64,000 bases of DNA from Paramicrobacterium agarici. Lineage in GTDB: Bacteria > Actinomycetota > Actinomycetes > Actinomycetales > Microbacteriaceae. The translations under genes and the position numbers were made by a program. This document shows positions 1-64,000 of the stretch, piece after piece. The notes below the pieces were generated by a model. It was not told the origin of the DNA. It searched no databases and saw nothing but the letters and a program-made list of their open reading frames with translations. The DNA is taken from NCBI RefSeq assembly GCF_002563955.1, contig NZ_PDJE01000001.1:186001-250000 (forward strand). Reading direction: 5' to 3'. How positions within the stretch are numbered: the stretch's first letter is position 1; each line of letters begins with the position of its first letter.

Positions 1-339
1 GACAATATCTCGTGCATTCCAAAGCATCTCATTACTAGCGGCTTCTCGTCCTGCTACTCACGCCTGCGTGGCGATGAACCTGCCGTAACGATCACAGTCA
101 ATTTCGTTCACCCCGCGTCGAACAAGTGCATACACCCTGACTTCGACCGCGCGCTAACACCCCGTGAGGGGGCACGTCTTCAGTCCTACGATGACGATTT
201 TGTTTTCAAAGGAAATCGGGCCCAGATCGTCAAGCAAATCGGCAATGCTGTGCCACCTCTGCTCGGGCAAGCTATCGCACAAAGCGTTCTAGATGCGCTC
301 GGCGCACCGGCACGGTCTCAAGAGCAATTGATCGCATAA
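1..339 (+). CDS. DNA (cytosine-5-)-methyltransferase, C-terminal part
   Basis: The window opens inside this gene; the last 112 codons are visible and end in TAA. The protein carries the C5-methyltransferase carboxy-terminal signatures: RALTPREGARLQSYDDDF, which is motif IX, followed about 14 residues later by QIGNAVPPLLGQAIA, which is motif X. The enzyme methylates the C5 position of cytosine in a defined DNA sequence. The catalytic Pro-Cys motif lies upstream of the window, so activity cannot be judged. No restriction endonuclease is visible on the right side; one could lie to the left. It sits in the integrative element and is probably cargo protecting or stabilising it. Confidence 0.85.
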   Translation, partial: DNISCIPKHLITSGFSSCYSRLRGDEPAVTITVNFVHPASNKCIHPDFDRALTPREGARLQSYDDDFVFKGNRAQIVKQIGNAVPPLLGQAIAQSVLDALGAPARSQEQLIA

Positions 340-448
340 TCGCGCGATTGTTCGCTCGCTCAGATACGAGACAGCACGACGCAGCGTTTGTCCCAGAGCT
401 GGAAGCCATTGGCGGGTAGGTGCCCTGAAATTCGAGCGTAGGCGCGAT

Positions 449-479
449 CGCTAATGCCGCGACTTCCTCGGCATTAGCG
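449..479. terminator. 11-bp inverted repeat between convergent genes
   Basis: CGCTAATGCCG at 449-459 pairs perfectly with CGGCATTAGCG at 469-479 across a 9-nt loop. It lies after the methyltransferase gene and overlaps the stop codon of the convergent helix-turn-helix gene, so it could end transcription from both sides. There is no clear T-run, so intrinsic termination is an inference. Confidence 0.5.
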
Positions 480-989
480 CGGAAGAGTCAATGCTTCCCG
501 TCCGCGCCCCAATGGGAGCCGCGTTAAATAGTGCTCTCGCCATAACTCGCCGTCGTAGTCGAGGTCGAACCGCCAGCCACGAGCGTCGACGTCGTAACTC
601 TTGTCGCGGATCCACCAAGCTCCCACAATCCAATCCGACACCTCCGCTAACAAGAGTTTCCGCTCGACTCCATCGTCTAGTCGAAGCGGCCACCATTTCT
701 CAGCGGCCTCACGCTTGCGCGGCTCACGCCAGCTCTCGTGCCAGCCCGTGTGCGTGTCACCGTTCTCCTCAGGCGGTGCCGAGAGTCGAACTACGACGGC
801 GGGCATGGTCGGATCAGCCGCACCACGCGCCAGCAGTCGATCGATGCCATGCACACCATCAGCCGACTCCTCAGCAAACATCACCAGGTGCGCGACCCTC
901 GTCGGCGAAAGCAATCCGCACGCCACGAGCTTGTCAACTGATGTGGTGCTGACCGACAACAGCGCGGCAGCATCCTTCCTTGTGATCAT
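474..989 (-). CDS. Helix-turn-helix protein of the integrative element, unknown function
   Basis: A 171-aa protein starting at the ATG at 989 (MITRKDAAALLSVSTTSV). The first 40 residues look like an excisionase/MerR-type helix-turn-helix (ITRKDAAALLSVSTTSVDKL), suggesting DNA binding. The remaining 130 residues are rich in Trp and charged residues and match no family I recognise. It is transcribed away from the 1128 gene, and the gap between them holds a perfect 16-bp direct repeat, so it may be the element's own repressor acting there. A longer reading frame extends upstream across the repeat region, but it would run through the divergent promoter and is unlikely to be used. Confidence 0.6.
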   Translation of the reverse strand: MITRKDAAALLSVSTTSVDKLVACGLLSPTRVAHLVMFAEESADGVHGIDRLLARGAADPTMPAVVVRLSAPPEENGDTHTGWHESWREPRKREAAEKWWPLRLDDGVERKLLLAEVSDWIVGAWWIRDKSYDVDARGWRFDLDYDGELWREHYLTRLPLGRGREALTLPR

Positions 990-1007
990 CGAACCAGCCT
1001 GCCTCAC

Positions 1008-1067: not shown

Positions 1068-1127
1068 AATCATTCTCAGGATTCCATGGCGGGGCTTCCC
1101 GCCAAATCGAGAGTTTGGAGAAAACGC

Positions 1128-2956: not shown

Positions 2957-3114
2957 TGGAGCGCCCGGGTCTCGCGGAACTCATCGCGCGCACGGAGCGC
3001 GTGGCCACAGGCAAGGCGATGACCGGCAATTGGTCCGCCACCGATGAAGCCCGCCTGTCAACACTGTACGACGAGCGTCGCTGCCTGCGCGACGAAGGAG
3101 CAGACTATGAGTGA
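2956..3114 (+). CDS. Small 52-aa protein between translocase and excisionase
   Basis: The ATG at 2956 overlaps the translocase stop codon (TGATG), and the frame ends by overlapping the start of the excisionase gene. The protein is charged and probably alpha-helical (EARLSTLYDERRCLRDEGAD near its end), with no membrane segment. Tight overlaps on both sides are the main reason to accept it as real. Small genes in this position are common in actinomycete elements and usually have no assigned function. An accessory role in excision or transfer is inference. Confidence 0.6.
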   Translation: MERPGLAELIARTERVATGKAMTGNWSATDEARLSTLYDERRCLRDEGADYE

Positions 3115-4594: not shown

Positions 4595-4617
4595 GGATGC
4601 TGCCGCCGACAGCATCC
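4595..4617 (-). terminator. Hairpin built from an inverted GGATGCTG pair after the LCP gene
   Basis: GGATGCTG at 4595-4602 pairs with CAGCATCC at 4610-4617 across a 7-nt loop, starting 4 nt after the stop codon of the upstream minus-strand gene. It has no T-run. It uses the same octamer that is scattered over the window. Confidence 0.6.
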
Positions 4618-6202: not shown

Positions 6203-6994
6203 CTACAGCGACGCGAGCACGGTGACCACGCCGTCGCTGGCAACGTCAGCGACGGCTTCTGTCGCAGCATCCTTCACCTCGTCTGGCGCTTGGCCCATCG
6301 CCACGCTGCGCCCATGCTTCCCTGCCCAGCGCAGCATCTCGATGTCGTTGCGACCGTCTCCGACAGCGACCAGGTTCGTTCGATCGACCCCGAGCCACGA
6401 GCGCACGTGCTCAAGACCCGTCGACTTGTTGACGCCGAATGGCGCGATGTCGAGCCAGGCCGTCCACCCAATCGCATATGTGACCTTGTGCAGCCCCATG
6501 TCTTCGACGGCCTTGAGAAACTCCTGCTCGTCGTGTCCTGGCGAGACCACGACGACACGTGTCACCGGCTTCTCGAGCAGCTCGTCGAACTCGACCATCT
6601 CTGCGCCGTCGAGATTCCACTCGGTCATACCCTCGGTGAATCGGCGAAAGCCATCGGGGTACTCGACGAGGTAGCGACCGTCGTCGAGGTGGTTGTGAAT
6701 GAGCCGCAGAACCTCGGTGGGATCGAACGTCTCGACGTGATGGCGCACATAGTCGTCGCCCTCACGCTTCATGATCACCGCACCATTGGCGCAGACAACG
6801 TAGTCACTCGCGATTCCCAGCTGCTGCATCACCGGTTCGGTCGCCTCCCAGCTGCGACCGGTAGCGAGCATGAGCATGTGACCCGAGGCGGATGCTGTCG
6901 CCACGGCGTCGAGCACGGCGGGCGACACCTCGCCGTTCTCGTGCAGCACCGTTCCGTCGACGTCGAGCGCGACGAGTTTGGAGACGGGCGTCAC
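6203..6994 (-). CDS. HAD-superfamily phosphatase, Cof type
   Basis: A 263-aa protein whose GTG start lies in the serS stop codon (GTGA), so it is co-translated with serS. HAD motifs are clear: motif [12 protein letters not shown] near the N-terminus with the nucleophile Asp, motif II LATGRS, a conserved Lys ([11 protein letters not shown]) and motif [13 protein letters not shown]. The long insert between motifs II and III is the Cof-type (IIB) cap. Such enzymes dephosphorylate sugar phosphates, nucleotides or flavin precursors. The substrate cannot be told from sequence. Linkage to serS is common in actinobacteria but has no established meaning. Confidence 0.85.
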
Positions 6995-8256
6995 GCCACG
7001 GGCTCCGCGACCTCGAGTCCGCCCAGGTAGGGACGCAGCACCTCGGGGATCACGACGGAGCCGTCTGCACGCTGATGCGTCTCGAGCAGCGCGACGAGCC
7101 ACCGCGTCGTCGCGAGGGTTCCGTTGAGCGTCGCCACGGGAGCTGTCTTTCCGGACTCGGTGCGGTGGCGCGTGTCGAGCCGGCGTGCCTGGAACGTCGT
7201 GCAGTTCGACGTCGATGTCAGCTCGCGATATGCCTCTTGCGTCGGCACCCACGCCTCGACGTCGTACTTGCGGGCGGCGCTCGACCCGAGATCGCCGGCC
7301 GCGGTATCGATGACCCGGTAGCTCAGGCCGAGGCTCTGCAGCATCCCTTCTTGCCACGCCAGCAGCCGCTCATGCTCGGCCTCGGCCTCTGCGGGGTCGG
7401 TGTAGACGAACATCTCGAGCTTGTTGAATTGGTGCACACGAATGATGCCGCGCGTGTCTTTGCCGTGCGATCCGGCCTCGCGCCGATAGCACGTGGACCA
7501 CCCGGCGTAGCGCAGCGGCCCGTTCGAGAGATCGACGATCTCGTCTGCGTGGTAGCCGGCGAGCGCGACCTCGCTCGTGCCCGTGAGGTAGAGGTCGTCT
7601 GCTTCGAGCTTGTACACCTCGGCGGCGTGCTCGCCCAGGAACCCCGTTCCCGCCATGATCTCCGGCTTCACGAGCGTCGGCGTAATGAGGGGCGTGAAGC
7701 CCGCCTCAAGCGCACGGTCGAGCCCGAGGTTCATGAGTGCGAGTTCAAGCCGCGCGCCAATGCCCTTGAGGTAGTAGAAGCGGGCGCCCGACACCTTGGT
7801 GCCGCGCGCCATGTCGATGGCGTCGAGCTTCTCGCCGAGCTCGAGATGGTCGCGCGGTGCGAAGTCGAACGTCGGAAGCTCCCCCTCGGTGCGCAGCAGC
7901 GTGAAGTCGTCTTCTCCGCCCGAGGGCACGCCGTCAATGACGATGTTCTCGATCGCGCGAGCGGTGGCGGTGAATGACTCTTCGGCGTCACTCGCTGCGC
8001 GCTGCGCCTCTTTCACGCGGGCAGCCAGCTGCTGCACCTCCGCGATCAGCGCCTTCTTCTCGTCTTTCGGAGCCTGCGCGACCTTCTTGCTGAACGCGTT
8101 CTGCTCGGCGCGCAGCTCTTCGTAGACGCCGATGGCGCGTCGACGCGCAGCATCCGCCTCGATCGCCTCGTCGACGATGTCGACTCGGGACCCGCGCGCC
8201 TCCTGCGAGCGTCGAACGAGGTCAGGGTTTTCACGCAGAAGTACCGGATCAATCAC
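6991..8256 (-). CDS. serS: Seryl-tRNA synthetase
   Basis: A 421-aa class II synthetase, normal in length. The first ~110 residues form the coiled-coil tRNA-binding arm, rich in Ala, Glu and Lys. The catalytic domain follows with [12 protein letters not shown], motif 2 ([15 protein letters not shown]) and motif 3 region ([17 protein letters not shown]). It charges tRNA-Ser and tRNA-Sec in the cytoplasm. The GTG start has a TAGACT -10 box exactly 6 nt upstream, so the mRNA is probably leaderless. Two tRNA-Ser genes lie within 2.5 kb on the same strand. Confidence 0.97.
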
Positions 8257-8292: not shown

Positions 8293-9273
8293 ATGAGCGT
8301 CGGAGGCAAGCGGTTCGCGGCAGTCGTGTACAACCCGGTGAAGACCGACGGCGACAAGCTGAAGAAGATCTTCACCGAGGGCGCCGTGGAGCACGGGTGG
8401 GACGAGCCGCGCTTCATCGAGACGACCGTCGACGACCCCGGCGTCGCCATGGCGAAGGATGCGGTGCGAGACGGCGCATCGGTCGTGATCGCCGCGGGCG
8501 GCGACGGAACAGTGCGCTGCGTCGCGGAGGGCTTGCGTTCGAGCGGCGTTCCCCTCGCGATCGTGGCCGCGGGCACGGGCAACCTGCTCGCGCGCAACCT
8601 CGACATTCCGCTGAGCAACGTCAAGCAGGCCATGACCATCGCGTACACGGGCGACGACCGCACGATCGACGTGGGTGTCGCCGAGGTGAAGTCCGACGAC
8701 CGCGCGACGCAGGAGTACGTGTTTCTCGTGATGGCGGGCATGGGCATCGACGCGCAGATGATCGCGAACACCAATGACGATCTGAAGAAGACCGTGGGGT
8801 GGTTGGCATATGCGGATGCTGTCGTGCGCTCGCTCGCGGGGCTGAAGCCGTTTCGCATTCGCTACCAGCTCGCCGAGTCGGCTCCGCACGGTGCCCACGT
8901 GAGCACCATCCTCGTGGCCAACTGCGGAACGCTTCCCGCCGGCATCGAGCTGCTGCCCGACGCCAAGGTCGACGACGGAAAGCTCGACCTCGCCGTGCTG
9001 CAGCCCAAGGGCGTTCTCGGCTGGGTGCAGGTGTGGCGCAAGGTTCGGTGGGAGAACGGCGTACTTCGCCGGTCAAGCATCGGTCGACGCATCTTGAAGG
9101 CGTCGGAGGGGCGCGACAGCACCATCACCTACCTGCGCTCCCCCATGGTGACGGTGAAGCCCGACGACCCGCAGGAGCTCGAGCTTGACGGTGACGAGGT
9201 GGGCACGACGACGGCCACGCGCTTCACGGTCGACCCGCTCGCGCTGACCGTGAAGGTGCCGCAGGCGCGCTGA
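8293..9273 (+). CDS. Diacylglycerol kinase-family lipid kinase
   Basis: A 326-aa protein of the YegS/DgkB-like lipid kinase family. The nucleotide-binding motif GGDGT is at residues 69-73 and the family motif AAGTGNLLARNLDIP follows about 25 residues later. The C-terminal beta-rich half ends in ELDGDEVG, a usual phosphate-loop motif. These enzymes phosphorylate diacylglycerol or related lipids at the inner membrane face, recycling lipid to phosphatidate. It has a TAGGTT -10 box 6 nt before its ATG and is divergent from serS with only 36 nt between them, so the two promoters overlap. Confidence 0.88.
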   Translation: MSVGGKRFAAVVYNPVKTDGDKLKKIFTEGAVEHGWDEPRFIETTVDDPGVAMAKDAVRDGASVVIAAGGDGTVRCVAEGLRSSGVPLAIVAAGTGNLLARNLDIPLSNVKQAMTIAYTGDDRTIDVGVAEVKSDDRATQEYVFLVMAGMGIDAQMIANTNDDLKKTVGWLAYADAVVRSLAGLKPFRIRYQLAESAPHGAHVSTILVANCGTLPAGIELLPDAKVDDGKLDLAVLQPKGVLGWVQVWRKVRWENGVLRRSSIGRRILKASEGRDSTITYLRSPMVTVKPDDPQELELDGDEVGTTTATRFTVDPLALTVKVPQAR

Positions 9274-9582: not shown

Positions 9583-10485
9583 ATGCGCTTCATCAAGCCA
9601 CTGCCCGACAGCATCCGCGAGCCCGTCTCTGTCGCGACGGCGCGCGAACGCGGTGCCACACGTTCTCAGCTGCGCAACACGGCGTTCCGCGCACCATTTC
9701 ACGGCACGCGAGTGCTGGGGCCGGCCGAGCCGTCGCTCCAGGTCTGCTGCACCGCCCTGATGACTCGGCTGCCCGACGGTTCCGCGATCAGCCACCTCAC
9801 CGCGGCCGACCTTCGATCGATGCGGCTCCCACTTGCGCGTCGCGACGGCGTTCACGCGACCGTGCCGCCGTCGCATCGCGCACCCCGGCATCGCGGCGTA
9901 CATGGTCACAGCGCGAGGCTGCGCGACACCGACGTTACGCTTGTGGACGGCATCCCCACGACCACCGTTGAGCGCACGTGGTGCGACCTCGGTGCCCTGC
10001 TGAGCCTGCCCGAACTCGTCGCCGTCGCAGACGGCGCACTGTGGATCGAAGACGCGACGACGACGCTGTCCGACCTTCGCGACGCCATGCGCGAGCACCG
10101 GAATCGGCCGTACTTCCCGAAGCTTCGTCGCGCTCTTGAGCTGACGAGCGCGCACTCGGCATCCCGCCCCGAATCGCTTCTGCGCGTGCATATCGTGCTC
10201 AGCGATCTTCCCGATCCCATTCCGAACTACACCCTCGAGCTCACGCACCGCGCCGGGCATCGAGTACTCGACCTCGCGTATCCGAAGTACCGCCTGGGGC
10301 TGGAGTATCACGGTGATCATCACCGCACCGACAAGCATCAGTGGCATACCGACATCCAACGAGCCAATGACATCGTTAAGGAAGACTGGGAAGAGCTGCA
10401 GTTCACCGGCGCCGATCTGCCGCGCCTCGACGTACTGCTGGCGCAAGTGGAACGCCGCTTGCGTGCACGGGGCTGGGTGGGATAA
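9583..10485 (+). CDS. DUF559-type (Vsr-like) putative endonuclease
   Basis: A 300-aa protein. The ATG at 9583 is preferred because the sequence from MRFIKPLPDSIREPVSVATA matches the usual beginning of this family; an ATG at 9550 is in frame. The N-terminal part (VATARERGATRSQLRN) resembles the AbiEi-like winged helix. The C-terminus (about residues 200-295) looks like a PD-(D/E)xK nuclease fold with PESLLRVHIV, RVLDLAYP and GLEYHGDHH carrying the acidic residues. Such proteins are frequent orphans in actinobacteria with unknown role. Here the gene is flanked on each side by two palindromic repeats. A role in DNA processing of those repeats is speculation. Confidence 0.65.
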   Translation: MRFIKPLPDSIREPVSVATARERGATRSQLRNTAFRAPFHGTRVLGPAEPSLQVCCTALMTRLPDGSAISHLTAADLRSMRLPLARRDGVHATVPPSHRAPRHRGVHGHSARLRDTDVTLVDGIPTTTVERTWCDLGALLSLPELVAVADGALWIEDATTTLSDLRDAMREHRNRPYFPKLRRALELTSAHSASRPESLLRVHIVLSDLPDPIPNYTLELTHRAGHRVLDLAYPKYRLGLEYHGDHHRTDKHQWHTDIQRANDIVKEDWEELQFTGADLPRLDVLLAQVERRLRARGWVG

Positions 10486-10659: not shown

Positions 10660-12156
<1,497 letters not shown>

Positions 12157-33926: not shown

Positions 33927-33978
33927 AGGCCAAGCGTAGCGCGACAGCATCCAACCGGGCTTCCAACATTGTCATTTA

Positions 33979-52007: not shown

Positions 52008-52089
52008 CCGGATGCTGCGAGGCAGCGACCCGCGCGCTGCCTCGCCCCTCCGGCATCCACCCTCACGCACGCTGACCGTTGACACGCGA

Positions 52090-53094
52090 TCAATCCGGGA
52101 CGATCACCGTCTTGATGCCGCGTCCCTCGCGAATGTTCTCGAAGGCGCGCTGCCACTCGGCGATCCGAACACGTTCCGTGACAAGCGGGTCGAGCGCGAC
52201 AAGCCCTCCCTCGATGAGCGTCATGGCACGGCGCCACGATGCCGGTGTCGACGCGAAGCCGCTCGTCACCGTGATCTCTTTGTAGAGCACGGCATCAAAC
52301 GGCAGCGGCACGTCGCGACCGAAGATGCCGACCTGAACATAGCGGCCGGCGCGACGAACCGCCGAGAACGCGAGCGCAGCTCCTGGAGCACTCCCGGACG
52401 CCTCGAGCACGACGTCGAAGCTCTCAGCATCCGGAGCCTCCGTCGTCGTGCTGAAGCCGAGCTCGCGCGCGACGCGCAGCCGCTCGGCGTCTTTCGGTAA
52501 ACCGGCAAGCGTCACGACACCACCCTGAGCGCGGGCCACCTGCGCACTGAGCTGCCCCATGGCGCCGGGACCGACGACGAGCACGTCGTCACCTGGGGAG
52601 ATGACAGACGGGTCGCACAGGCAGTGCGCCACACACGCGAGCGGCTCAGCGAGTACGGCGCCGATTCCGGCATCCTGCCCCTTGTCTGCAGAGGGCACCG
52701 CGTGCAGATTTGCCACGGGCACGCAGACATACGGCGCAAAGCCGCCATTTTCGAACGAGCCGATCGAACGGCGATTCGGGCACAGGTTGATGCGACCATC
52801 GCGGCACGGGGCACAGCGTCCGCACGTGCTGAAGTACGTCTCGGTTGCGACACGCTGCGACACCCAATGCTCGTCTGCAGCGTCGCCGATGGCATCGACC
52901 TCGCCGAGAATCTCGTGCCCCATGACGACGGGCGCCTCGTAGCCGTACTCGTCGCGGGCGATGTGCAGATCGGTACCGCACACTCCCGTCGCGATCACGC
53001 GGATGCGCGCGAACCCGGCCTGCGGCTCGGGAACATCTGTCTCGCCGAGACCGACGCCGGCCTCGCCCGGCGCCGTCTTCATCACGGCGCTCAT
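52090..53094 (-). CDS. Zinc-binding medium-chain alcohol/polyol dehydrogenase
   Basis: A 334-aa MDR-family enzyme. The start MSAVMKTAPG at 53094 matches how related enzymes begin; an ATG at 53106 adds four residues. Catalytic zinc ligands are in GVCGTDLH (Cys) and MGHEILGE (His, Glu); the structural zinc site is CGRCAPCRDGRINLC. The NAD-binding motif reads VLVVGPGAMGQL. It oxidises a sugar alcohol or sugar acid, as threonine, sorbitol or idonate dehydrogenases do. It ends an operon after two permeases and a binding protein, so its substrate is probably what they import. Confidence 0.87.
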   Translation of the reverse strand: MSAVMKTAPGEAGVGLGETDVPEPQAGFARIRVIATGVCGTDLHIARDEYGYEAPVVMGHEILGEVDAIGDAADEHWVSQRVATETYFSTCGRCAPCRDGRINLCPNRRSIGSFENGGFAPYVCVPVANLHAVPSADKGQDAGIGAVLAEPLACVAHCLCDPSVISPGDDVLVVGPGAMGQLSAQVARAQGGVVTLAGLPKDAERLRVARELGFSTTTEAPDAESFDVVLEASGSAPGAALAFSAVRRAGRYVQVGIFGRDVPLPFDAVLYKEITVTSGFASTPASWRRAMTLIEGGLVALDPLVTERVRIAEWQRAFENIREGRGIKTVIVPD

Positions 53095-53109
53095 TCGCGA
53101 CAGCATCCG

Positions 53110-53979: not shown

Positions 53980-54899
53980 AGCTTCGCCCCCTTTCGGCGG
54001 AACGTCAGCAACCACATCACCACGAGAATCATCAAGAAGAAGATGATGAGCACGGCGGATGCTGTTCCAAAGTCGTTGTATTTGAAGCTCAGCCCATACA
54101 CGTAGATGTTCAGCGTCTCGGCTTCGTGGAAGGACCCGCCGCCCTGCCCCTTGACGACATAGAGCAGGTCGAAGGTCTTGAGCGCATCGATCGAGCGCAG
54201 CAGCACGGCGACCAGCACAACCGGCCGCAGCAGCGGCAGCGTCACGTACCAGAACCGCTGCCACGCGTTCGCACCGTCGATGCGCGCCGCTTCGTCGGGC
54301 TCGTCAGATAGCGACGTCAACCCGGCCAGCAGAATGATCGCGATCATCGGAGTGAATTCCCAAATATCAACGAACATCAAGGTCGGCAGCGTCGTCGCCG
54401 GCTCAGAGAACCAGGGTTGCGGTGGAACGCCCACCCAGCTGAGCACGCGGTTCGCGAAGCCGATGTTCGGATCGAAGATCAGCCGCCACATCATCGCGAT
54501 CGCTACCGGAGTCGCAACGAACGGCAGCAGAATCGCCACACGCACCCACTTCTGCGCCTTGAACGGCCGCCACAACAGCAACGCGATCGCCATTCCGGCG
54601 ACCAGCTCAACGGCCAGCGCACCAAACGTGAAGACGCCGGTGCGCATCACAGCAGGCCAGAAGCGATCGACGTCCGTCAGAACGTCGATGTAATTTTCGA
54701 TACCGATGAAGTCGGCGGGGGCGCGCACGGAACCCTTCGCGTCCGTGACGCTCAGGTAGATGGTCCACCCGATCGGAAAACCGATCAGAATGGCGGTGAA
54801 GATCATCGCGGGCGCAGCGAAAATCCACTTGCGGTGATCATTGACCCACCGCGAGACCCGTTCGGTACCCGAGGATCTGTTCAGCGACGTCGTTGTCAT
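53976..54899 (-). CDS. Sugar ABC transporter permease, MalF type
   Basis: A 307-aa permease; the ATG at 54899 (MTTTSLNRSSGTERV) is chosen because a longer start at 54950 adds only Arg-rich residues read through the intercistronic hairpin region. Six membrane segments, first at IFAAPAMIFTAILIGFPIGW; EAA loop DEAARIDGANAWQRFWYVTL. Coupled to the MalG-type gene by a 4-nt overlap. It follows the binding-protein gene after a 90-nt gap that holds a strong hairpin. Confidence 0.9.
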   Translation of the reverse strand: MTTTSLNRSSGTERVSRWVNDHRKWIFAAPAMIFTAILIGFPIGWTIYLSVTDAKGSVRAPADFIGIENYIDVLTDVDRFWPAVMRTGVFTFGALAVELVAGMAIALLLWRPFKAQKWVRVAILLPFVATPVAIAMMWRLIFDPNIGFANRVLSWVGVPPQPWFSEPATTLPTLMFVDIWEFTPMIAIILLAGLTSLSDEPDEAARIDGANAWQRFWYVTLPLLRPVVLVAVLLRSIDALKTFDLLYVVKGQGGGSFHEAETLNIYVYGLSFKYNDFGTASAVLIIFFLMILVVMWLLTFRRKGAKL

Positions 54900-54931
54900 T
54901 CGTCTCACTCGTTCGTGTCGGCGAGAGGGGC

Positions 54932-54969
54932 GGATGCTGTCGCGAGGCACGCGCCGCGCGACAGCATCC
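54932..54969 (-). terminator. Hairpin from an inverted, extended GGATGCTG pair after the binding-protein gene
   Basis: GGATGCTGTCGCG at 54932-54944 pairs perfectly with CGCGACAGCATCC at 54957-54969 (13-bp stem, 12-nt loop), 20 nt after the binding-protein stop on the minus strand. It probably limits transcription into the permease genes. Confidence 0.75.
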
Positions 54970-54989
54970 GTCTTCTACATCAGTGCCGG

Positions 54990-56285
54990 CTACTTCTCGG
55001 AATCCAGGAGATCCTGGAACTTCTGATTCGCTTCGTCTGCCGCAGCATCCGAATCGCCGCCCGTAATCGCCTCGACGATCGGGGCACCGACGATCTCGCG
55101 AGCCTCGGCCACGCCGATGACGAGCGGGCGGTCGTTGCCGACACCGTTCTCACCGTTCACCTGGATCGCCTTGGCGAGTTCTTCGGGGAAGTTCGACGTG
55201 CCTTCGGGGTTCTCCCACACCGAGGTGCGGGCACTCGGCACGCCTTCCTTCTGAATCTCGAGCGTCATCTCGGGACTCGTCGCCCACTTGATGAACTTCC
55301 ATGCATTGTCTTGATTCTGCGACGCAGCGTTGATGCCGAGCGCCCACGCCGCGACGTTGTACGGCTTCGAACCTGCCGGGCCCTCGGGGAACGGCGCAAA
55401 GCCGACCTGGTCGCCGACCTTCGACTTCTCGGGGTCGTACACGTTCTCGTACAGGCTCGATGCGTCGATCCAGAACCCGGCATCGCCCTGCGCGAAGATC
55501 GCCGCTGCCTCAGGCCAGCTCATGTCTGTGCTGATCTGGTCGGGGCCGTAGTCGTGCAGCAGCTTGCCGTAGAAGGCATACGCTTCCTTGGCCTCGTCAC
55601 TGCCGATCGCGGAGTTTCCCGAATCGTCTTCCCACGTTCCGCCGAAGCTGTAGAGGAATCCCGAGAACTGCGTGACCGCCGCGGAAGCCTGGCTGCGCAT
55701 GACGATGCCGGCGACGCCATCGTTGTCTTCTTTGATGGTCTTCGCCGCGTTCATCAGGTCATCCATCGTCTTCGGAACCTCGAGTCCTGACTTCTCCAGA
55801 AGATCCTTGCGGTAGTACAGCATCTCGTTCTCGGTGATCATCGGCACGCCGACGACCATGTCCTCGTACGTGGTGAGCCCGACGGGCCCGGCCTGGAAGT
55901 CATCCCAGTTCCAGTCGCCCGCGTCGTTGACTCTGTCGGTGATGTCGGCAAAGTAGCCGCTCTGTCCGAAGAGCTTGCCCACCTGCAGAGGCCGGTACAT
56001 CATGACGTCGACATCACTCGACCCCGCGTTGAGCTTGACCTTGTAGTTGTCGACGAGCTGGTCCTCGCTGAGCTGATTAATCTCAACGGTGAGGCCCGAA
56101 TCCTCTTCGAACTCCTTGATCTTCTTGGTGATCACGTCTGTCCAGACGTGATTGGCGAGGGTGACGTTGAGGGTCTTCGACCCGCCATCATCTCCACCGC
56201 CACTGCTGCAGGCTGTGAGCACGCCTGCGCTGAGCAGCGCTGCCGCGGCTAGGGCCACGACTCGCTTTGCCGATCCAAACTTCAT
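54990..56285 (-). CDS. Sugar ABC transporter substrate-binding lipoprotein
   Basis: A 431-aa family 1 solute-binding protein starting at the ATG at 56285, with AGGAGGTC nine bases upstream. Signal peptide and lipobox LTAC (MKFGSAKRVVALAAAALLSA at the start). The mature protein shows MITENEMLYYRKDLLEKSG and FAQGDAGFWIDASSLYENV, usual for CUT1 binding proteins. The ligand may be a sugar, polyol or sugar acid, judged from the dehydrogenases encoded with it. Promoter elements lie upstream at 56345-56372. Confidence 0.88.
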   Translation of the reverse strand: MKFGSAKRVVALAAAALLSAGVLTACSSGGGDDGGSKTLNVTLANHVWTDVITKKIKEFEEDSGLTVEINQLSEDQLVDNYKVKLNAGSSDVDVMMYRPLQVGKLFGQSGYFADITDRVNDAGDWNWDDFQAGPVGLTTYEDMVVGVPMITENEMLYYRKDLLEKSGLEVPKTMDDLMNAAKTIKEDNDGVAGIVMRSQASAAVTQFSGFLYSFGGTWEDDSGNSAIGSDEAKEAYAFYGKLLHDYGPDQISTDMSWPEAAAIFAQGDAGFWIDASSLYENVYDPEKSKVGDQVGFAPFPEGPAGSKPYNVAAWALGINAASQNQDNAWKFIKWATSPEMTLEIQKEGVPSARTSVWENPEGTSNFPEELAKAIQVNGENGVGNDRPLVIGVAEAREIVGAPIVEAITGGDSDAAADEANQKFQDLLDSEK

Positions 56286-57240: not shown

Positions 57241-58080
57241 ATGAGCGAGAACGACCCGCGGAACGTCATATCGTGGCGGTCCGATGCTCCGCCGTTGCCG
57301 CCACCGCGCACTCGATTCAACGCCCGTAAAGGCCATGGCCTGTACGACCGCGTCGTCGACGTGATCGGGCAGCAGATCGTCACCGGCGAGCTGCCGGTCG
57401 GCTCGATCATCTACGCCGAGCAGGTCTGCGAGCAGCTCGACATCTCACGCTCGGTCGTTCGCGAAGGCATTCGCACCCTCAGCTCGATGGGGCTCGTCGA
57501 GTCGCGACCGCAGCGTGGCACGCGCGTGCAACCCCGCGATCAGTGGGACCTCCTCAACCCGCACGTCGTCCAGTGGCGCGGCGAGGGATCCGAATACCTG
57601 CAGCAGATGTACGAGCTCCTCGAGCTGCGCCTCGGCATCGAGTATGCCGCCGCTCACTTTGCGGCACTGCGCATGAGTGATGCCGATCGCGAGGCCGTCG
57701 TCGCGGCGGGCTACGCGATGCAGCGCGCGTACGAAGACCGCGACCCGCACACGTTCTTCATGGCCGACGCCGATCTGCACCGGCTCATGCTCGAGGGCAC
57801 GGGAAACGCCGTGATCGGGCAGTTTGCCGACACCGTCTCGACGGCTCTGCACATTCGCGGCAGCAATGCGTCGCGCTCGTATTCAAGGGCGCAGAGCCTC
57901 GATGCACTGTCAGCAGGCCGACACGTCGAGCTGGCCGAGGCGCTTGCGCGCAGAGATCCGGATGCTGCGCAGAAAGCCGTGAACGACATCATGTTCGCGA
58001 CCCTCGCAGAAGTGCAGAATCTGCTTGAGGCCCGCAATGGCACGGTAGCGAACACGAGCTCTTCGGCTCACCACGGCTGA
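57241..58080 (+). CDS. FadR-type (FCD) GntR-family regulator
   Basis: A 279-aa regulator starting at the ATG at 57241 after a GGAGGG site. An unusual ~30-residue Pro-rich N-terminus comes first. The winged helix follows: GLYDRVVDVIGQQIVTGELP, then LDISRSVVREGIRTLSSMGL and the wing VESRPQRGTRV. The C-terminal FCD domain includes LLELRLGIEYAAAHFAAL and a metal-site His pattern (DADLHRLMLEGTGN and GRHVELAEALARRD). It likely represses both divergent units of this cluster and is released by a sugar acid. Confidence 0.88.
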   Translation: MSENDPRNVISWRSDAPPLPPPRTRFNARKGHGLYDRVVDVIGQQIVTGELPVGSIIYAEQVCEQLDISRSVVREGIRTLSSMGLVESRPQRGTRVQPRDQWDLLNPHVVQWRGEGSEYLQQMYELLELRLGIEYAAAHFAALRMSDADREAVVAAGYAMQRAYEDRDPHTFFMADADLHRLMLEGTGNAVIGQFADTVSTALHIRGSNASRSYSRAQSLDALSAGRHVELAEALARRDPDAAQKAVNDIMFATLAEVQNLLEARNGTVANTSSSAHHG

Positions 58081-58185: not shown

Positions 58186-59757
58186 ATGGAGAACGCAGCC
58201 GCAGCACCCGGATACGAGTCCGAAATGGGCCCGGATGCTGTCGCTGTGCGTGCCGCTGAGAATGTACTCGCGGCTGCTGCTGACCTCACCGATGTAGACC
58301 CGAGCGCGCTCTCGGCGGACGCCCTTCTGGAGTTCACGGGTCTGCTGGGAAACATTGCTCGTCTTGTCGAGGGCCGCCAGGTCGGCAACGTGGGCGACAT
58401 CGCTCTCCGCTCCGACACCGATGCCGGGTTCGATGGTCTCGCCGCTCGTCATGGGGCGGCGTCTGCGACGGGACTGTTTGAGAAGATCACGGGGGCGAAG
58501 AACTCGACCGCGTACCGGTACACGAGACTCGCCGCCCACACGACACCGCGCGTCTCCGACACCGAGCTTCCGCTTGACCCGGTGTTTCCGCAGACCGCTC
58601 AGGCGTTGAGCGACGGTGTCATCGGTTTGGACGCTGCCGAAGCGATCACCGCGACACTCGCACCGGTGCTCCCGCGTGCGGTGCCGGAGCAGATGGACTG
58701 GGCAGAAGCCACGCTGCTGGGCAACGCGACCGGCGCGAACGGGGAAGCACCGGTGTCAGCGGATAACCTGCGTCAGCAGGCCCGCGCGTTCTGCGCCGTG
58801 CTGGACCCGGACGGTGTGGAACCGTCGGCGGAAGACCTCCACCAGGCGCGGAAGCTCGTGTTCCGGCACCAAGACGACGGCAGTCTGAAGATCACCGGCA
58901 CCTTGTCACCGGAACAGGCAGCACAAGTGACACCCGTGTTCGACGCCTACATGTCCAAACGCACGTCACCGACGTTTATGCATGCCGACGAGCAAGCCGA
59001 TAACAATGACGCGCCGGAGGAGCGGTCGAAACCGCAGGAACGCGCCGATGTGTTCATCGCGATCATCAGCGGCACCGGAAAGCAGAAGACCGCACCGAAA
59101 CTCCACGGGCGAGGACCGACCGTGCTGGTGACTGTGGATGAACGCAACCTCAACACGGGAACCGGCGCGGCGTGGTCGCCGGGAACACCGGCAGCGTTGC
59201 CGATGAGCTACGTGCAGCAAATGCAATGCGACGGCGACACCCGGCACGTGCAGATCGACGAGCACGGCGAAGTGCTTGACCAGGGACATGCCAGCCGGGA
59301 GTTCTCCCCGAATCAACGCTTGGCCTTGATCGCACGCGACGGCAACACCTGCGCCGTCCCCGACTGCCAGATTCCCGCCTGGTTGTGCGGAGCACACCAC
59401 ATTCACGGATGGAAAACCGGCGGTAAAACAGACCTGTCCAACGGCGTCCTACTGTGCTGGTGGCACCACCGCGTTGTCGAACACGGAGAATGGGCCATCA
59501 CCCGCGACAACAACGGCCGACCACGCGTGGTGCCGCCCGGCTGGTACGTCAACCGCGGTTACCTCGGGCAACGGAGAGCGCCAGGACGCGGTACCAGTGC
59601 TGACGAACCAGGCACGAGCGCGGCCGGTCCACAGACGAGTGCGCCCCGGCCCGGGACCAACGCGACGAGACCGCGGACGAGTGCGCCCGAAGGCACAACC
59701 AACAGTGAAAACGGCGGTCCGCCCGGCGACGGACGAGATACCGGGCCGCGTTCCTGA
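58186..59757 (+). CDS. DUF222 / HNH endonuclease (REP13E12-like family)
   Basis: A 523-aa protein starting at the ATG at 58186. The N-terminal ~330 residues are the DUF222 domain; the HNH nuclease lies near residues 370-430: RDGNTCAVPDCQIPAWLCG, AHHIHGWKTGGKTDLSNGV, then LCWWHHRVVEHG. Four Cys/His positions probably bind a metal. The C-terminal ~75 residues are low-complexity (repeated TSA/GT with Pro and Arg). This family is present in many copies in actinobacterial genomes and is related to the mycobacterial 13E12 repeat; its role is not settled. Upstream sequence (58090-58180) includes TTGTCCACAATGG. Confidence 0.88.
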   Translation: MENAAAAPGYESEMGPDAVAVRAAENVLAAAADLTDVDPSALSADALLEFTGLLGNIARLVEGRQVGNVGDIALRSDTDAGFDGLAARHGAASATGLFEKITGAKNSTAYRYTRLAAHTTPRVSDTELPLDPVFPQTAQALSDGVIGLDAAEAITATLAPVLPRAVPEQMDWAEATLLGNATGANGEAPVSADNLRQQARAFCAVLDPDGVEPSAEDLHQARKLVFRHQDDGSLKITGTLSPEQAAQVTPVFDAYMSKRTSPTFMHADEQADNNDAPEERSKPQERADVFIAIISGTGKQKTAPKLHGRGPTVLVTVDERNLNTGTGAAWSPGTPAALPMSYVQQMQCDGDTRHVQIDEHGEVLDQGHASREFSPNQRLALIARDGNTCAVPDCQIPAWLCGAHHIHGWKTGGKTDLSNGVLLCWWHHRVVEHGEWAITRDNNGRPRVVPPGWYVNRGYLGQRRAPGRGTSADEPGTSAAGPQTSAPRPGTNATRPRTSAPEGTTNSENGGPPGDGRDTGPRS

Positions 59758-59872: not shown

Positions 59873-60613
59873 CTATTTTCCGTACGAGTGACTGTGCACC
59901 GGCGAAATGACGAGCTCGTTGACACAGACATCCGCAGGAGAATCCACCACGAACGCGACGGCGCGCGCCACGTCATCAGGACTCAACATGCGTGATCGTG
60001 CCGCAGCATCCGGAACCGTCGGACGCTTGTCAACGAATTCGGTGTCGATGTCGCCAGGGCAGATCACGGTAGCGCTGATGCCATGTGCGCTCTCCTGATC
60101 ATTCAGCGACTCCGTGAGCGAAATCAGTCCCGTCTTGCTTGCCGAGTACGCAACGCCAGCACCTCGGCCGAAAGCCCACCCGGCCCACGACGAGATCACA
60201 ACGACACGACCCCGCCCTCTGCTTCTCATCTCGGGCAGCACAGCGGAAATTCCCCGCGCGACAGAGGTGAGGTTGGTCTCGACCACGGCCTGAAATTCCG
60301 CGATCTCCAGCTTGTCCCAGTGCCGTTTCGTGACGTTCATTCCCGCGCAGAAGACGATCTCGTCGACGGCACCCGCCTCGGCGTGAACGCGATCGAGCGC
60401 CTGCCGAGTCGACTCGTCATCTGCAGCATCCATTGGAATGACAATCGCCCTTCCGCCCCGCTGCTCCACCTTCGCACGCACGACCTCGAGGGCATCAACG
60501 CGACGACCACTGAGCGCGAGCACGCGACCGGATGCCGCAAGAGCAAGCGCGCTCGAAGCCCCGACACCCGAACTTGCTCCGATGATCCAGGTCACAGTGT
60601 TCGATTCGCTCAC
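59873..60613 (-). CDS. Short-chain dehydrogenase/reductase
   Basis: A 246-aa SDR. The GTG at 60613 is preferred over one at 60619 because GGAGG then lies five bases upstream. Cofactor motif WIIGASSGVGASSALALAAS (TGxxxGxG reads GASSGVG), Asp-Ala in MDAADDES, FCAG in IVFCAGMNV, catalytic Ser in VISSWAGW and YSASK in VAYSASKTGL. Arg residues after beta-2 (SGRRVDAL) favour NADP(H). It is a lone gene with unknown substrate, convergent with the HNH gene after a 115-nt gap in which I see nothing definite. Confidence 0.86.
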   Translation of the reverse strand: MSESNTVTWIIGASSGVGASSALALAASGRVLALSGRRVDALEVVRAKVEQRGGRAIVIPMDAADDESTRQALDRVHAEAGAVDEIVFCAGMNVTKRHWDKLEIAEFQAVVETNLTSVARGISAVLPEMRSRGRGRVVVISSWAGWAFGRGAGVAYSASKTGLISLTESLNDQESAHGISATVICPGDIDTEFVDKRPTVPDAAARSRMLSPDDVARAVAFVVDSPADVCVNELVISPVHSHSYGK

Positions 60614-60705: not shown

Positions 60706-61209
60706 ATGGGACGCTCGAGGTCGACAGGGATGCTGTTGTGCGCACTGTCGCTCGGACTCGCACTCACGTTCGCCGCATGCTCGAGTTCCCCGCCAGAATC
60801 GAGCGAGGCGCAGGACGATCCGGCGCCGCGGCCCACCCCGTCCGTCATCGCCGAGCCGACAGGCGTTCCTGCACCCGCCAACGACTCTTCAGACGAACAC
60901 GACGACACCGCAGCGGAATTCGATCCCGCGCAGATCGAAGACCTCGGTGCGCGCGAGGGTGCCTCAGGCGAGGCCAGGCACGACGCGAGCGGCTTCTGGT
61001 ACTACGAGGTTGTTTCAGGCGATGTTGCGAGTGTCATCTGCGATCGCTTTGACCGCCGATGGTGGCAGCTCGAGACTCTCGACGCCGAGCCCGGCTTCGA
61101 TTGCCGCAGCACGATCTACCCCGGTCAAATTCTCATTCCGACCGCTTATGCCGAAGATCACAACGTCGATCCGCCGTGGGTGCCGAGCGACAATCCGTTC
61201 ACGGGGTGA
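60706..61209 (+). CDS. LysM-like secreted lipoprotein
   Basis: A 167-aa lipoprotein with signal peptide MLLCALSLGLALTFAAC (lipobox FAAC, Cys near residue 25), a ~65-residue linker rich in Pro, Ser and acidic residues, and a C-terminal LysM-like module of ~50 residues (WYYEVVSGDVASVICDRF, then STIYPGQILIPT). LysM modules bind peptidoglycan; two cysteines in this one may form a disulfide. A TAGAGT -10 box lies 7 nt before the ATG. Its last 11 nt overlap the convergent pseudouridine synthase gene. Confidence 0.78.
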   Translation: MGRSRSTGMLLCALSLGLALTFAACSSSPPESSEAQDDPAPRPTPSVIAEPTGVPAPANDSSDEHDDTAAEFDPAQIEDLGAREGASGEARHDASGFWYYEVVSGDVASVICDRFDRRWWQLETLDAEPGFDCRSTIYPGQILIPTAYAEDHNVDPPWVPSDNPFTG

Positions 61210-62116
61210 GCGACGACCACGCGGCCAGCTCTCGCCTGCTGGTGAATTCCCGAATCGTGCCGTCAACGGGGTCTGTGAAGCGCAGTGTCTTCGCGAGCAG
61301 CTGCAGCGGCGACGAGAAGTCGTCAATCGACGTGTCGACGACCTCGGGATAGAACGGGTCATTCACGATCGGCAGACCGAGAGCGTTCATGTGCAGGCGG
61401 ATCTGGTGCGTCTTGCCGGTATGCGGCGTCGCTCGATAGCGCGCGAGGCCCGATGCCTGCTCGATCAGCTCAATGCGCGTCTCGGCGTTCGGCTCGCGAT
61501 CGGTTACTTCGTATGCACGCACCTCACCGTGAATCTTGACGATGTGGCTGCGCACCGTCGCCGGAAGCTCGCGGTCGCCGGGCGCGTTGGCGATCGCCTC
61601 ATACTCCTTCTCGACCTCGCGGCGGTCGAACATCGTCTGATATGCACCGCGCCACTCGCGCGCCGCCGTGAGCAGCAGCACTCCTGCTGTCACACGGTCA
61701 AGCCGATGAGCGGGAACAAGTTGCGGCAAATCGAGCAGACGACGCGCCTTCACCACGACGCTCTGCGTCACGTGCCGACCGCGCGGAATCGTCGAGAGAA
61801 AGTGCGGTTTGTCAATGACGACAATGCGGTCGTCGCGGTGCAGAACGTCAATGTCGAACGGAACCTCGACCTCCTCGCGCAGATCTCGATGGAACCACAC
61901 GAACGTGTGCGGCCGATACGGCGCGTCTGCCGCGAACGGACGGCCGTCATCGCCCGCGAACTCCCCGTTCGCGAGCATGTCGTCGATGCGCGCGGCCTCG
62001 AGCTTCGGCAAGCGCTCAATCAGAAACTGCCGAAGGGTCTTCCAACGGCGCTCGCGCGGCGTGCGCACCCACGCGGCATCGAGCCCGTGGCGTTGCGGAA
62101 GAGGTGAGATCGGCAC
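61199..62116 (-). CDS. RluA-family pseudouridine synthase
   Basis: A 305-aa RNA-modifying enzyme with a GTG start; a TACCCT -10 box lies 6 nt upstream. The catalytic motif HRLDR is at residues 137-141 with Asp140 as nucleophile, and TGKTHQIRLHMNALGLPIVN is the conserved C-terminal motif. DDRIVVIDKPHFLSTIPRG precedes the core, and the N-terminal 80 residues form an S4-like or accessory domain. It converts uridine to pseudouridine in rRNA or tRNA; which site cannot be told. Confidence 0.9.
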   Translation of the reverse strand: MPISPLPQRHGLDAAWVRTPRERRWKTLRQFLIERLPKLEAARIDDMLANGEFAGDDGRPFAADAPYRPHTFVWFHRDLREEVEVPFDIDVLHRDDRIVVIDKPHFLSTIPRGRHVTQSVVVKARRLLDLPQLVPAHRLDRVTAGVLLLTAAREWRGAYQTMFDRREVEKEYEAIANAPGDRELPATVRSHIVKIHGEVRAYEVTDREPNAETRIELIEQASGLARYRATPHTGKTHQIRLHMNALGLPIVNDPFYPEVVDTSIDDFSSPLQLLAKTLRFTDPVDGTIREFTSRRELAAWSSLTP

Positions 62117-62176
62117 TCATCGAGGGTACCCCTCCCCATTGAAGCGCCCCGCTTGCCCCTGGATAGACTCCCCCTC

Positions 62177-64000
62177 ATGGGGAGAATCGCACGTGCGCTG
62201 GTCGCAACCGGTGCGGCCGCCGCGGCAGCAGCGATGCTGACCGGGGCGGCCATGGCCGGGACCGTGCCGACGGACGAGAGACCGGGTGAGCCCACGTCGC
62301 TCAACCACGCGACAGCAGCGGCGCAGCCCAACGGCACCTCGCCCGTCATGGCGCTCGGCGTCGCGCCCTCCGACGTCGACGATTTCGAGTTTCAGAGCCT
62401 CGACGTCGACTACACCATCGGCCGCGACGACGACGGCCACAGCACGCTCACGGTCGTCGAAGAGTTCACGGCGGTCTTTCCCGACGCCGATCAGAACCGT
62501 GGAATGCGCCGCAGCATCCCGACGACCTATAACGGTCAGCCGCTCAACCCCGAACTTGTCTCGATCACCGACGGCGCGGGCACAGAGCGCCCCGCTGAGA
62601 CCGACACCGAAGACGGCACGTTTCAGATGACATCTCGTGCTGACGACTACCTGCACGGGGCACAGACCTTCGTGTTCACGTACACGCTGCAGCACGTCAC
62701 GTGGTACTTCGACGAGACCGACACCGAGGAGTTCTACTGGGACGTCAACGGCGTCGACTGGAAGCAGCCCTTCGGCTCCATCGAGGCCACGCTGCACGTC
62801 CCAGCATCCCTCGCGCCCGCGATGACGGCCGAGCAGTCCTGCTACCGGGGAGCGCAGGGCAGCGCCGACACCTGCTCGATTCTGGCGACTCCGGATGCTG
62901 ATGGCGGCGCGACCGTGACGGCGCACGCCCGCGACATTTCCCCGTACGAGACGACCTCCATCGCTGTCGGATTCGAGCCCGGCACTTTCGTTCCGTACGA
63001 CACGTCGTTCTTCGCCCGCGCGTGGGGATGGTTGCAGCTCGTCGTGACGCTCGCCGCCGTCGCCCTGCTGATCCCGGCCATCCACACGCGAGTCACGAAG
63101 CTCCGCGATGCGCCCGGACGCCCCAGGGTGATCGCCGAATACGAGCCGCCGCACGACATCGACGCACTGCAGGCCGCCGTCTTTCTCGGCAAGCAGGCGA
63201 AGGCGATCCCGGCCGAGGTTCTCGAGCAGGCCGTCTCCGGCAGCATCCGCATTATCGAGGGTCGCAGAAAGTTCTTCGGCGGCGCGCGGCTGCAGGCCCA
63301 GCTCGTCGACACGTCGAAGGCAGACGGTGATGGGCGCATGCTTCTATACGGTCTCTTCGGCCCCGCACCGGCAGCCGGTGCCGTCTTCGAGTTCGGCCGC
63401 CAAGACAAACGGCTGTCGAAGACGGCGCAGAACATCATCACGTGGGCGAAGACGCAGCTTAAGTCACGCGAGTACCGCCGAACGGTGTCATCGACGGCCG
63501 TCAAAGCTCCCGCAATTCTCGGCTTTCTCGCCGCGGGCGCGTCTGTCGCACTGGGCGTCATCTCTCTCAACCTGCAGGTCGAGCCGCTGCTGCCCGTTCT
63601 GCTCATGATCGGCGCCGTCGTCGCGTGGGTCGCATGCATCATGCTCGTCGCGCACCGACCGCTGACGCCCAGGGGAGCCGAGCTTCGCGACCACCTCGCA
63701 GGTCTCAAGGAGTTCATCGAGTGGGCAGAGGCCGACAGAATCAGGATGCTGCAATCGCCGACCGGCGCGGAACGCAGGACCATCGATGCGAGCGACCCGC
63801 GCCAAGTGCTGCACCTCTATGAGAAGCTCCTGCCGTTTGCAGTGATCTTCGGGCAAGAGAAGCAATGGGCCGACCAGCTCGTCGTGCTCTACCAGTACAC
63901 CGGTGCCGCCGCGCCGACGTGGTACTACGGTGCGGCCGGTTTCAACGCGTCGGCGTTCTCTAGCGGCATATCGACGTTGTCGACAACTGCTGTCAGCGCC
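62177..64000 (+). CDS. DUF2207 membrane protein, 3' end beyond the window
   Basis: 608 codons are visible with no stop. A signal peptide (residues ~1-27, ending AMA) precedes a ~250-residue extracytoplasmic DUF2207 domain (VDYTIGRDDDGHSTLTVVEE, FTYTLQHVTWYF, EFYWDVNG). A membrane segment near residue 280 (WGWLQLVVTLAAVALLIPAI) is followed by a cytoplasmic region and two more segments near 440-490. The family is common in actinobacteria with unknown function. The end turns Gly/Ser/Thr-rich (SAFSSGISTLSTTAVSA). The ATG lies in the loop of a hairpin, and a TAGACT box 7 nt upstream suggests a leaderless mRNA. Confidence 0.82.
   Translation, partial: MGRIARALVATGAAAAAAAMLTGAAMAGTVPTDERPGEPTSLNHATAAAQPNGTSPVMALGVAPSDVDDFEFQSLDVDYTIGRDDDGHSTLTVVEEFTAVFPDADQNRGMRRSIPTTYNGQPLNPELVSITDGAGTERPAETDTEDGTFQMTSRADDYLHGAQTFVFTYTLQHVTWYFDETDTEEFYWDVNGVDWKQPFGSIEATLHVPASLAPAMTAEQSCYRGAQGSADTCSILATPDADGGATVTAHARDISPYETTSIAVGFEPGTFVPYDTSFFARAWGWLQLVVTLAAVALLIPAIHTRVTKLRDAPGRPRVIAEYEPPHDIDALQAAVFLGKQAKAIPAEVLEQAVSGSIRIIEGRRKFFGGARLQAQLVDTSKADGDGRMLLYGLFGPAPAAGAVFEFGRQDKRLSKTAQNIITWAKTQLKSREYRRTVSSTAVKAPAILGFLAAGASVALGVISLNLQVEPLLPVLLMIGAVVAWVACIMLVAHRPLTPRGAELRDHLAGLKEFIEWAEADRIRMLQSPTGAERRTIDASDPRQVLHLYEKLLPFAVIFGQEKQWADQLVVLYQYTGAAAPTWYYGAAGFNASAFSSGISTLSTTAVSA

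Follow-up and report, generated by a model that had tools for sequence, protein, structure and literature searches.

The stretch analysed here, 64,000 nt of the single-contig Paramicrobacterium agarici chromosome (the window; NZ_PDJE01000001.1, positions 186,001 to 250,000), is studded with one octamer, GGATGCTG, of which it holds 61 exact copies (32 plus, 29 minus; 0.95 per kb) against a mean of 2.58 and a maximum of 8 in 100 dinucleotide shuffles. No other 8-mer of the window is as over-represented under a second-order Markov model (61 vs 2.58, z 36.4). The initial annotation had read about 57 copies (29 and 28 per strand) by eye against a random expectation of two to four; the massive excess and the expectation stand, the exact count does not, and the positions that it listed are accurate within 4 bases (14920 is 14923, 15290 is 15286 and 48544 is 48543). 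The copies form two inverted pairs and 57 single sites, all exact matches:

4595..4617, no strand, inward inverted pair GGATGCTG...CAGCATCC forming a hairpin stem, in a gap without a called gene
54932..54969, no strand, inward inverted pair with a long hairpin in a noncoding gap (-46.1 kcal/mol, plus strand of 54920-54995)
968..975, minus, GGATGCTG copy
6265..6272, minus, GGATGCTG copy
6890..6897, plus, GGATGCTG copy
7339..7346, minus, GGATGCTG copy
8148..8155, minus, GGATGCTG copy
8814..8821, plus, GGATGCTG copy
9609..9616, minus, GGATGCTG copy
11010..11017, minus, GGATGCTG copy
12193..12200, plus, GGATGCTG copy
13013..13020, minus, GGATGCTG copy
13647..13654, plus, GGATGCTG copy
14923..14930, plus, GGATGCTG copy
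15286..15293, plus, GGATGCTG copy
17193..17200, minus, GGATGCTG copy
17937..17944, plus, GGATGCTG copy
19568..19575, plus, GGATGCTG copy
20971..20978, plus, GGATGCTG copy
23341..23348, minus, GGATGCTG copy
24017..24024, plus, GGATGCTG copy
24163..24170, minus, GGATGCTG copy
24351..24358, minus, GGATGCTG copy
25177..25184, plus, GGATGCTG copy
28476..28483, minus, GGATGCTG copy
28573..28580, plus, GGATGCTG copy
30024..30031, plus, GGATGCTG copy
33619..33626, plus, GGATGCTG copy
33945..33952, minus, GGATGCTG copy
35323..35330, minus, GGATGCTG copy
35834..35841, plus, GGATGCTG copy
37524..37531, plus, GGATGCTG copy
37666..37673, plus, GGATGCTG copy
38128..38135, minus, GGATGCTG copy
38335..38342, minus, GGATGCTG copy
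38716..38723, plus, GGATGCTG copy
39277..39284, plus, GGATGCTG copy
45113..45120, plus, GGATGCTG copy
46702..46709, plus, GGATGCTG copy
48425..48432, minus, GGATGCTG copy
48543..48550, plus, GGATGCTG copy
48828..48835, minus, GGATGCTG copy
50652..50659, minus, GGATGCTG copy
51001..51008, plus, GGATGCTG copy
52010..52017, plus, GGATGCTG copy
52425..52432, minus, GGATGCTG copy
53101..53108, minus, GGATGCTG copy
54057..54064, plus, GGATGCTG copy
55043..55050, minus, GGATGCTG copy
57960..57967, plus, GGATGCTG copy
58233..58240, plus, GGATGCTG copy
60004..60011, minus, GGATGCTG copy
60424..60431, minus, GGATGCTG copy
60728..60735, plus, GGATGCTG copy
62512..62519, minus, GGATGCTG copy
62802..62809, minus, GGATGCTG copy
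62893..62900, plus, GGATGCTG copy
63241..63248, minus, GGATGCTG copy
63744..63751, plus, GGATGCTG copy

A sharply defined octamer throughout the chromosome

The observation holds far beyond the window. A genome-wide count, a check that had been proposed at the outset, gave 1,416 forward and 1,373 reverse copies, 2,789 in all, in the one contig of 3,233,920 bp, as opposed to 46 and 53 (99) for the reversed word, and composition is thereby far exceeded. In a 464 kb sample made up of the window and 20 further stretches of 20 kb from the same genome, 367 copies stood against 20.9 expected, and among the 24 one-mismatch neighbours of the word only GGATGCCG was strongly enriched (173 vs 36.9), with a few others at about 1.3-1.7-fold and some under expectation, such as GCATGCTG (16 vs 36.0). 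We refer to GGATGCTG and GGATGCCG as the CTG and CCG spellings. The word is non-palindromic, differing from its own reverse complement, and it prefers C at -1, C or T at +1 and G at +3, with CGGATGC[T/c]G[C/T] as its looser form. The proposed extension of most copies to CGGATGCTG(C/T) stood firmly for the C or T after the word (55/61) and less so for both flanks together (34/61).

The excess lies in the DNA and not in the proteins

Reading frames were assessed in a 484 kb sample with 430 genes, the gene calls coming from a simple in-house scorer of open reading frames and not from a standard annotator. Against protein-preserving synonymous shuffles, the enrichment of GGATGCTG ranged over the six frames from 2.7 to 51-fold, and against codon-order shuffles from 4.8 to 55-fold; noncoding DNA was enriched too (47 vs 2.2 expected). 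The alanine codon GCT, said in the initial annotation to be forced by the word, makes up 34.9% of alanine codons after GAT and 14.2% overall. As had been concluded from its occurrence in several frames, the word acts at the DNA level and not at the protein level. Two outcomes had been named that would count against it, namely enrichment explained by codon-pair bias in one frame only and a frequency no higher than dinucleotide composition predicts; neither applies, since no frame lacks the excess, noncoding DNA has it too, and it lies far above the shuffles and the Markov expectation.

Distribution of the copies along the chromosome

Spacing of GGATGCTG is near-exponential with a mean of 1.2 kb, and copies occur in every sampled stretch of the chromosome. 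The equal use of both strands claimed for the window is borne out genome-wide by the counts given above, and the 484 kb sample holds 188 leading-strand and 187 lagging-strand copies when the origin is assumed at base 1, so that a replication-linked word finds no support; with the origin moved to the GC-skew switch near 0.4 Mb, the summed counts of the 464 kb sample are 178 and 189.

Among neighbouring copies within 60 bp of each other in the 484 kb sample, 12 of 17 pairs are inward inverted (binomial P 1e-4); five of these 12 sit in noncoding gaps, and at four of the five the flanking genes converge. Density in the same sample reaches 1.70/kb in convergent gaps, a figure that rests on 20 copies of which 8 come from four inverted pairs, and is 0.73 in tandem and 0.64 in divergent gaps. 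All five noncoding pairs fold into hairpins. The inverted pairs had been taken for terminators; the pairs are real and that role is plausible only, because no clear T-run was seen behind the five hairpins. In addition, density follows GC content: 2 kb segments below 58% GC, which we use as a stand-in for acquired DNA, carry 0.15 copies per kb (3.8-fold), and those at or above 67% carry 1.36 (30-fold). Eight proteins from three low-GC stretches matched Pfam families of sugar metabolism, CoA transfer, other enzymes and surface polysaccharides.

Sites are retained while their spelling changes

About 300 bp around each site were aligned between species of the genus, and sites with unaligned flanks were dropped (20/61 towards G085 and 15/61 towards G001, G000 being the window's own genome). 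Of 20 ordered species pairs compared, six chosen comparisons were Fisher-tested against 15 hand-picked control octamers, with P values uncorrected. From G000 to G085, 41 of 61 window sites align at a mean flank identity of 0.83, and 30 of the 41 are exact, exceeding the control words (23/51 identical, P 0.006) in a background where octamers at neighbouring offsets, taken in multiples of three, are identical in 22%. Towards G001, 46 of 61 sites align, 1 as CTG and 19 as CCG; in the opposite direction 49 of 82 CCG sites align, as 19 CTG, 7 CCG and 23 other words, which gives a retention as either spelling of 26/49 vs 12/51 for control words (P 0.002). Retention likewise exceeded the control words from G001 to G085 (29/43 vs 13/51, P 5e-5), from G085 to G000 (30/54 vs 23/71, P 0.008) and, for CCG sites, from G148 to G199 (30/46 vs 21/64, P 0.0007). 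Control words were thus beaten in five of the six tested comparisons, the exception being G000 to G001. Orthologous sites that read CCG in one species of the genus read CTG in two others: the spelling changed while the sites stayed, presumably from CCG to CTG. A trans-acting reader that itself changes would leave such a trace, with one letter differing in concert at many sites that are otherwise kept.

Dialects in the family and in neighbouring lineages

Whole-genome counts of GGATGCTG and GGATGCCG covered a panel of 199 Microbacteriaceae genomes, and those of a cousin word, GTATGCCG, nine genomes of a second family. In the window's genus, four of five genomes hold 1,680 to 3,355 copies of the CTG spelling and the fifth, G001, holds 575; no panel genome from outside the genus has more than 777. 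The CCG spelling reaches 4,491 copies in one relative (reversed control 159), with a ratio to the reversed control of 5 or more in 103/199 genomes and of 10 or more in 49, over which its strand sums are 54,893 and 54,865. Within 80 kb around the window's orthologue, CCG and CTG copies number 82 and 13 in G001, 54 and 46 in G148, 55 and 47 in G199, and 38 and 82 in G085. Four named Microbacterium loci hold 24 to 36 copies of GGATGCCG per 20-21 kb.

Samples of 20-40 kb, with 12 kb or more from each of 75 family genomes, had a GGATGC-type word as top 8-mer in 26 genomes and a GGATC-type word in 7, counts below about 15 being weak as dialect calls. These samples suggest that further spellings exist in the family: GGATGCGC (29 vs 4.1 in G028, and likewise in G100 and G155), GGATGCGG (20 vs 1.3 in G161), GCGGATCC (34 vs 5.8 in G164), GCGGATCG (18 vs 2.4 in G051) and GCAGGATC (15 vs 1.4 in G047), the counts of these minor spellings coming from the samples only. 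G164 and G106 belong to the same genus (g85) and differ in their dominant word, GCGGATCC and GGATGCCG respectively, G106 being the richest GGATGCCG genome; this congener pair is suited to finding the reader gene. Most of seven sampled genomes of 1.4-1.8 Mb showed no such word.

Of the nine genomes from that second family, which belongs to the same order (f18), five are rich in GTATGCCG, holding 2,535, 2,476, 1,455, 1,251 and 1,192 copies against 99, 135, 462, 191 and 64 of the reversed word, and the remaining four have few (7 to 71 copies). The word extends to GTATGCCG(Y)(G) (f18 genomes; loci L080, L060, L041, L211 and L214) and is prominent also in named Ornithinimicrobium and Intrasporangium loci, which presumably belong to this family. 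Stretches from 12 other families, one each, showed no word of this kind; two further f18 stretches in that survey had been preselected for known GTATGCCG.

Beside these, TCTGGGAC/GTCCCAGA occurs 13 and 12 times in 21 kb of Actinomyces naeslundii (L010) and Actinomyces sp. oral taxon 170 (L014), where 0.7-0.8 are expected, and is perhaps a similar word. Around comEC in G029 (L171) and G049 (L175), AAACTCAG and CCACTCAA have 11-13 copies in 20 kb vs 0.0-0.6 expected and are probably small local repeats.

Seven Microbacterium phage records (317 kb; six with host M. foliorum, one with Microbacterium sp. ISAT203) hold GGATGCCG 106 times vs 31 expected (0.33/kb, 3.4-fold), whereas chromosomal loci of four other Microbacterium, which are not the phages' own host strain, hold it 125 times in 84.5 kb vs 13.2 (1.48/kb, 9.5-fold). 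In each of the seven phages the word lies outside the top three, so that replication in such hosts alone does not write it to the chromosomal level; the excess that remains hints at a slight preference of codon use for GGATGCCG. Two of the phages have repeats of their own. UtzChips (L221), whose record is annotated with a serine integrase, carries CGTGTAAACG-type repeats, with GTGTAAAC 23 times in 47 kb vs about 0 expected, possibly the repressor operator sites of a temperate phage, and PiperSansNom (L216) has nine copies of a ACCTATAGG-type word vs about 0 expected.

Competence, pilus and recombination genes

In the P. agarici genome, the open frames of comEA, comEC and holA follow one another in a single run; comEA and comEC match NCBIfam families, the best comEC model falling just under its cut-off, and the name holA is based on position and on the reading of the frame. 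comEC was found in 195/199 family genomes and, in 60 loci chosen for it, comEA adjoins in all 60 and holA is present in 59. T2SSE ATPases occur in 199/199. At least two TadA-like ATPase matches besides PilB were seen in every one of the five genus genomes; judging by the match scores, these would be the same two loci across the genus; in P. agarici one (L222) has T2SSE and T2SSF frames and the other (L223) T2SSE, two T2SSF-type (one under the Pfam cut-off), TadE and Tad frames. The com genes that the initial annotation had suggested looking for are thus present, as are tad-type loci, but com genes occur likewise in relatives without the word.

The MshEN-type PilB was found in 107/199 genomes. 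Enrichment is higher among its carriers (median ratio 7.1 vs 3.4, and 7.1 vs 4.4 in genomes of at least 2 Mb, both uncorrected for kinship); of the 18 genomes richest in GGATGCCG, six lack it. Presence of com or pilus genes was rejected as an explanation of which genomes carry the word, comEC and T2SSE being near-universal and PilB being missing in P. agarici. As for recombination enzymes, the RecC family was found in 0/199 family genomes, with a positive E. coli control, and AddB in 0/5 genus genomes, which argues against a classical Chi; AdnAB, which we presume these genomes to encode, was not searched for.

Discussion

Most of the features by which an uptake word can be read from sequence are present here, namely a short word far above chance at near one per kb genome-wide, equality of both strands with no replication polarity in the sample, an excess at the DNA level in every frame and between genes, retention at orthologous sites, and lineage dialects. 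Together with the inverted pairs and the scarcity in low-GC DNA, these make DNA uptake the best-supported reading of the genome anatomy, and we think it probable, if by no means certain, that GGATGCTG is a self-recognition word for uptake, functionally analogous to the DNA uptake sequence (DUS) of Neisseria and the uptake signal sequence (USS) of Haemophilus. The initial annotation had put forward the same hypothesis; its fit to the anatomy is the best of those considered, while we infer the functional step, since relatives with and without the word carry com genes: binding of the word, a resulting gain in uptake, and the nature of the receptor. We therefore call the word DUS-like and not yet a proven DUS. 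Double-stranded DNA that bears the word in either orientation might be bound by a surface protein, for instance the DNA-binding component of a Tad/Flp-type pilus, and handed to ComEA and ComEC; imported kin DNA would then recombine, and word-carrying alleles would spread by molecular drive, with or without selection. As the receptor changed along lineages the genome would follow, giving rise to dialects such as the presumed shift from CCG to CTG in the genus. ComEA and the TadE/Tad-domain frames of the tad locus are candidate receptors. The wider proposition, for which we see the chances as evenly balanced, is a sequence-specific, self-preferring uptake in monoderms, with fast-evolving dialects spanning the Microbacteriaceae and a second family and with a Tad-pilus or ComEA-linked receptor unrelated to ComP.

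The closest parallel is with the Neisseriaceae, for which PMC3630211 describes eight dialects of the DUS, which act as exchange barriers and number thousands of copies in each genome, and a two-dialect genome, S. muelleri, and for which the copies per genome range from 2,245 to 3,603 in the accessible parts of that paper and of PMC2397512. The latter source, in the same parts, describes the neisserial DUS as highly conserved, often in inverted repeats and rare in the accessory genome, and names the Haemophilus/Pasteurellaceae USS as functionally analogous. The word described here resembles the DUS in its thousands of copies, inverted pairs, conservation above surroundings and lineage dialects, and in the two-dialect genomes G148 and G199, and perhaps also in its scarcity in low-GC DNA, if that stands for acquired DNA; it differs in that it is another word, in Gram-positive actinobacteria, with a role in uptake proposed from sequence, no known ComP-type receptor and no MshEN-type PilB in P. 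agarici. With the USS it shares the high frequency of a word that, in the case of the USS, is used in uptake, and it differs in word and phylum and in that no AT-rich flanks were seen here. USS copies also form inverted pairs. In Neisseria, tracts of recombination are reported to be enriched in the DUS. Micrococcus luteus, an actinobacterium like those studied here with comEA/comEC and tad-type loci, requires two tad clusters for transformation according to PMC4322843, from whose main text the term 'uptake sequence' is absent and in whose accessible passages no word is reported.

Several findings weigh against the uptake reading. Part of the GGATGCCG excess may be codon use, and 42 of the 75 sampled genomes have a different kind of word, frequently a codon-type one, as their top 8-mer. 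Retention from G000 to G001 (20/46 vs 12/41, P 0.13) did not significantly exceed the control words. comEA adjoins comEC also in the 1.4-1.8 Mb genomes without the word and, with comEC and T2SSE at the frequencies given above, gene presence does not track the word and is uninformative. MshEN-type PilB is missing in G000, G085 and G148, where the word is strong. The ATPase of the second P. agarici tad locus (L223:7401-9453, near 2,604 kb) matches only positions 107-285 of the 370 of its family and is adjoined by a phage-integrase-family frame; one tad-locus ATPase frame of G199 likewise matches only part of the family. Finally, DNA uptake in monoderms is stated to show no sequence specificity in the portion of PMC12153270 (2025) that was available.

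Among other explanations, binding of the word by a protein of the nucleoid or of chromosome organisation, with selection keeping about one site per kb, would fit its presence in every sampled stretch at near-exponential spacing, its scarcity in low-GC DNA and the concerted change of spelling, which implies a trans-acting reader. We nonetheless regard it as rather unlikely, as the word has thousands of copies and no polarity in the sample, unlike the organising words KOPS, matS and parS, which are polar, regional or rare, and as inward inverted pairs and richness in convergent gaps would not be expected; there are also small relatives without a clear word. A repair or mutation drive could instead write the word with no receptor function, as may be pictured for HIP1 of cyanobacteria, an over-represented octamer of unsettled function that is likewise massively repeated. 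A slow drive would leave low-GC DNA and phages poor in the word, as they are. This too is unlikely in our view: HIP1 is a palindrome and the present word, with its lineage dialects, is not; a specific reader is called for by sites that are retained more than local conservation explains and by a spelling that shifts by one letter between species; the excess is too large to be fed from the few one-mismatch neighbours that are depleted; and GGATGCCG stands at 0.33 per kb in the Microbacterium phages vs 1.48 in the loci of four other Microbacterium genomes.

A Chi-like site for end-processing recombination enzymes shares with this word the octamer length, the high frequency, the chromosome specificity and the reading in trans, but is quite improbable and was disfavoured, for the leading-strand bias of Chi is not seen under either placement of the origin (188 vs 187 and 178 vs 189) and the RecBCD/AddAB enzymes that it requires did not come to light (RecC 0/199, AddB 0/5, with AdnAB outside the search). 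By analogy with the 8-bp TRS/clc recognition words of Streptomyces, an actinobacterial precedent, the octamer might serve an FtsK/TraB-type double-strand DNA translocase in conjugative chromosome mobilisation; clc sites are not known as amplified tens of times over chance, and we hold this to be highly improbable. An artefact of composition or codon pairs has a practically negligible chance: GGATGCCG is mildly favoured even in phages (3.4-fold), but GGATGCTG is enriched in noncoding DNA and, where enrichment in one frame only was looked for, in all six frames after protein-preserving shuffles, and the reversed word is not enriched. This explanation was rejected.

The accessible part of a review (PMC6370729) mentions no actinobacterial word and, in the open-access literature, with subscription journals mostly and preprints wholly outside it, no title or abstract start on such an uptake word was seen among the matches listed. 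If the uptake reading is true, it would overturn the view, stated in the available portion of PMC12153270, that Gram-positive transformation ignores sequence, and if an uptake test bears it out, uptake tags would be new for Gram-positive bacteria. The dialects would then amount to a naturally occurring set of word and receptor matches from which to learn how pili read DNA, and to a barrier to gene flow recognisable from nothing but sequence. They would also be of practical use in Microbacterium and its relatives, where DNA could be tagged with the right dialect. Even if the function differs, the thousands of copies and their in-step spelling differences between sister species point to a trans-acting reader of which we found no description.

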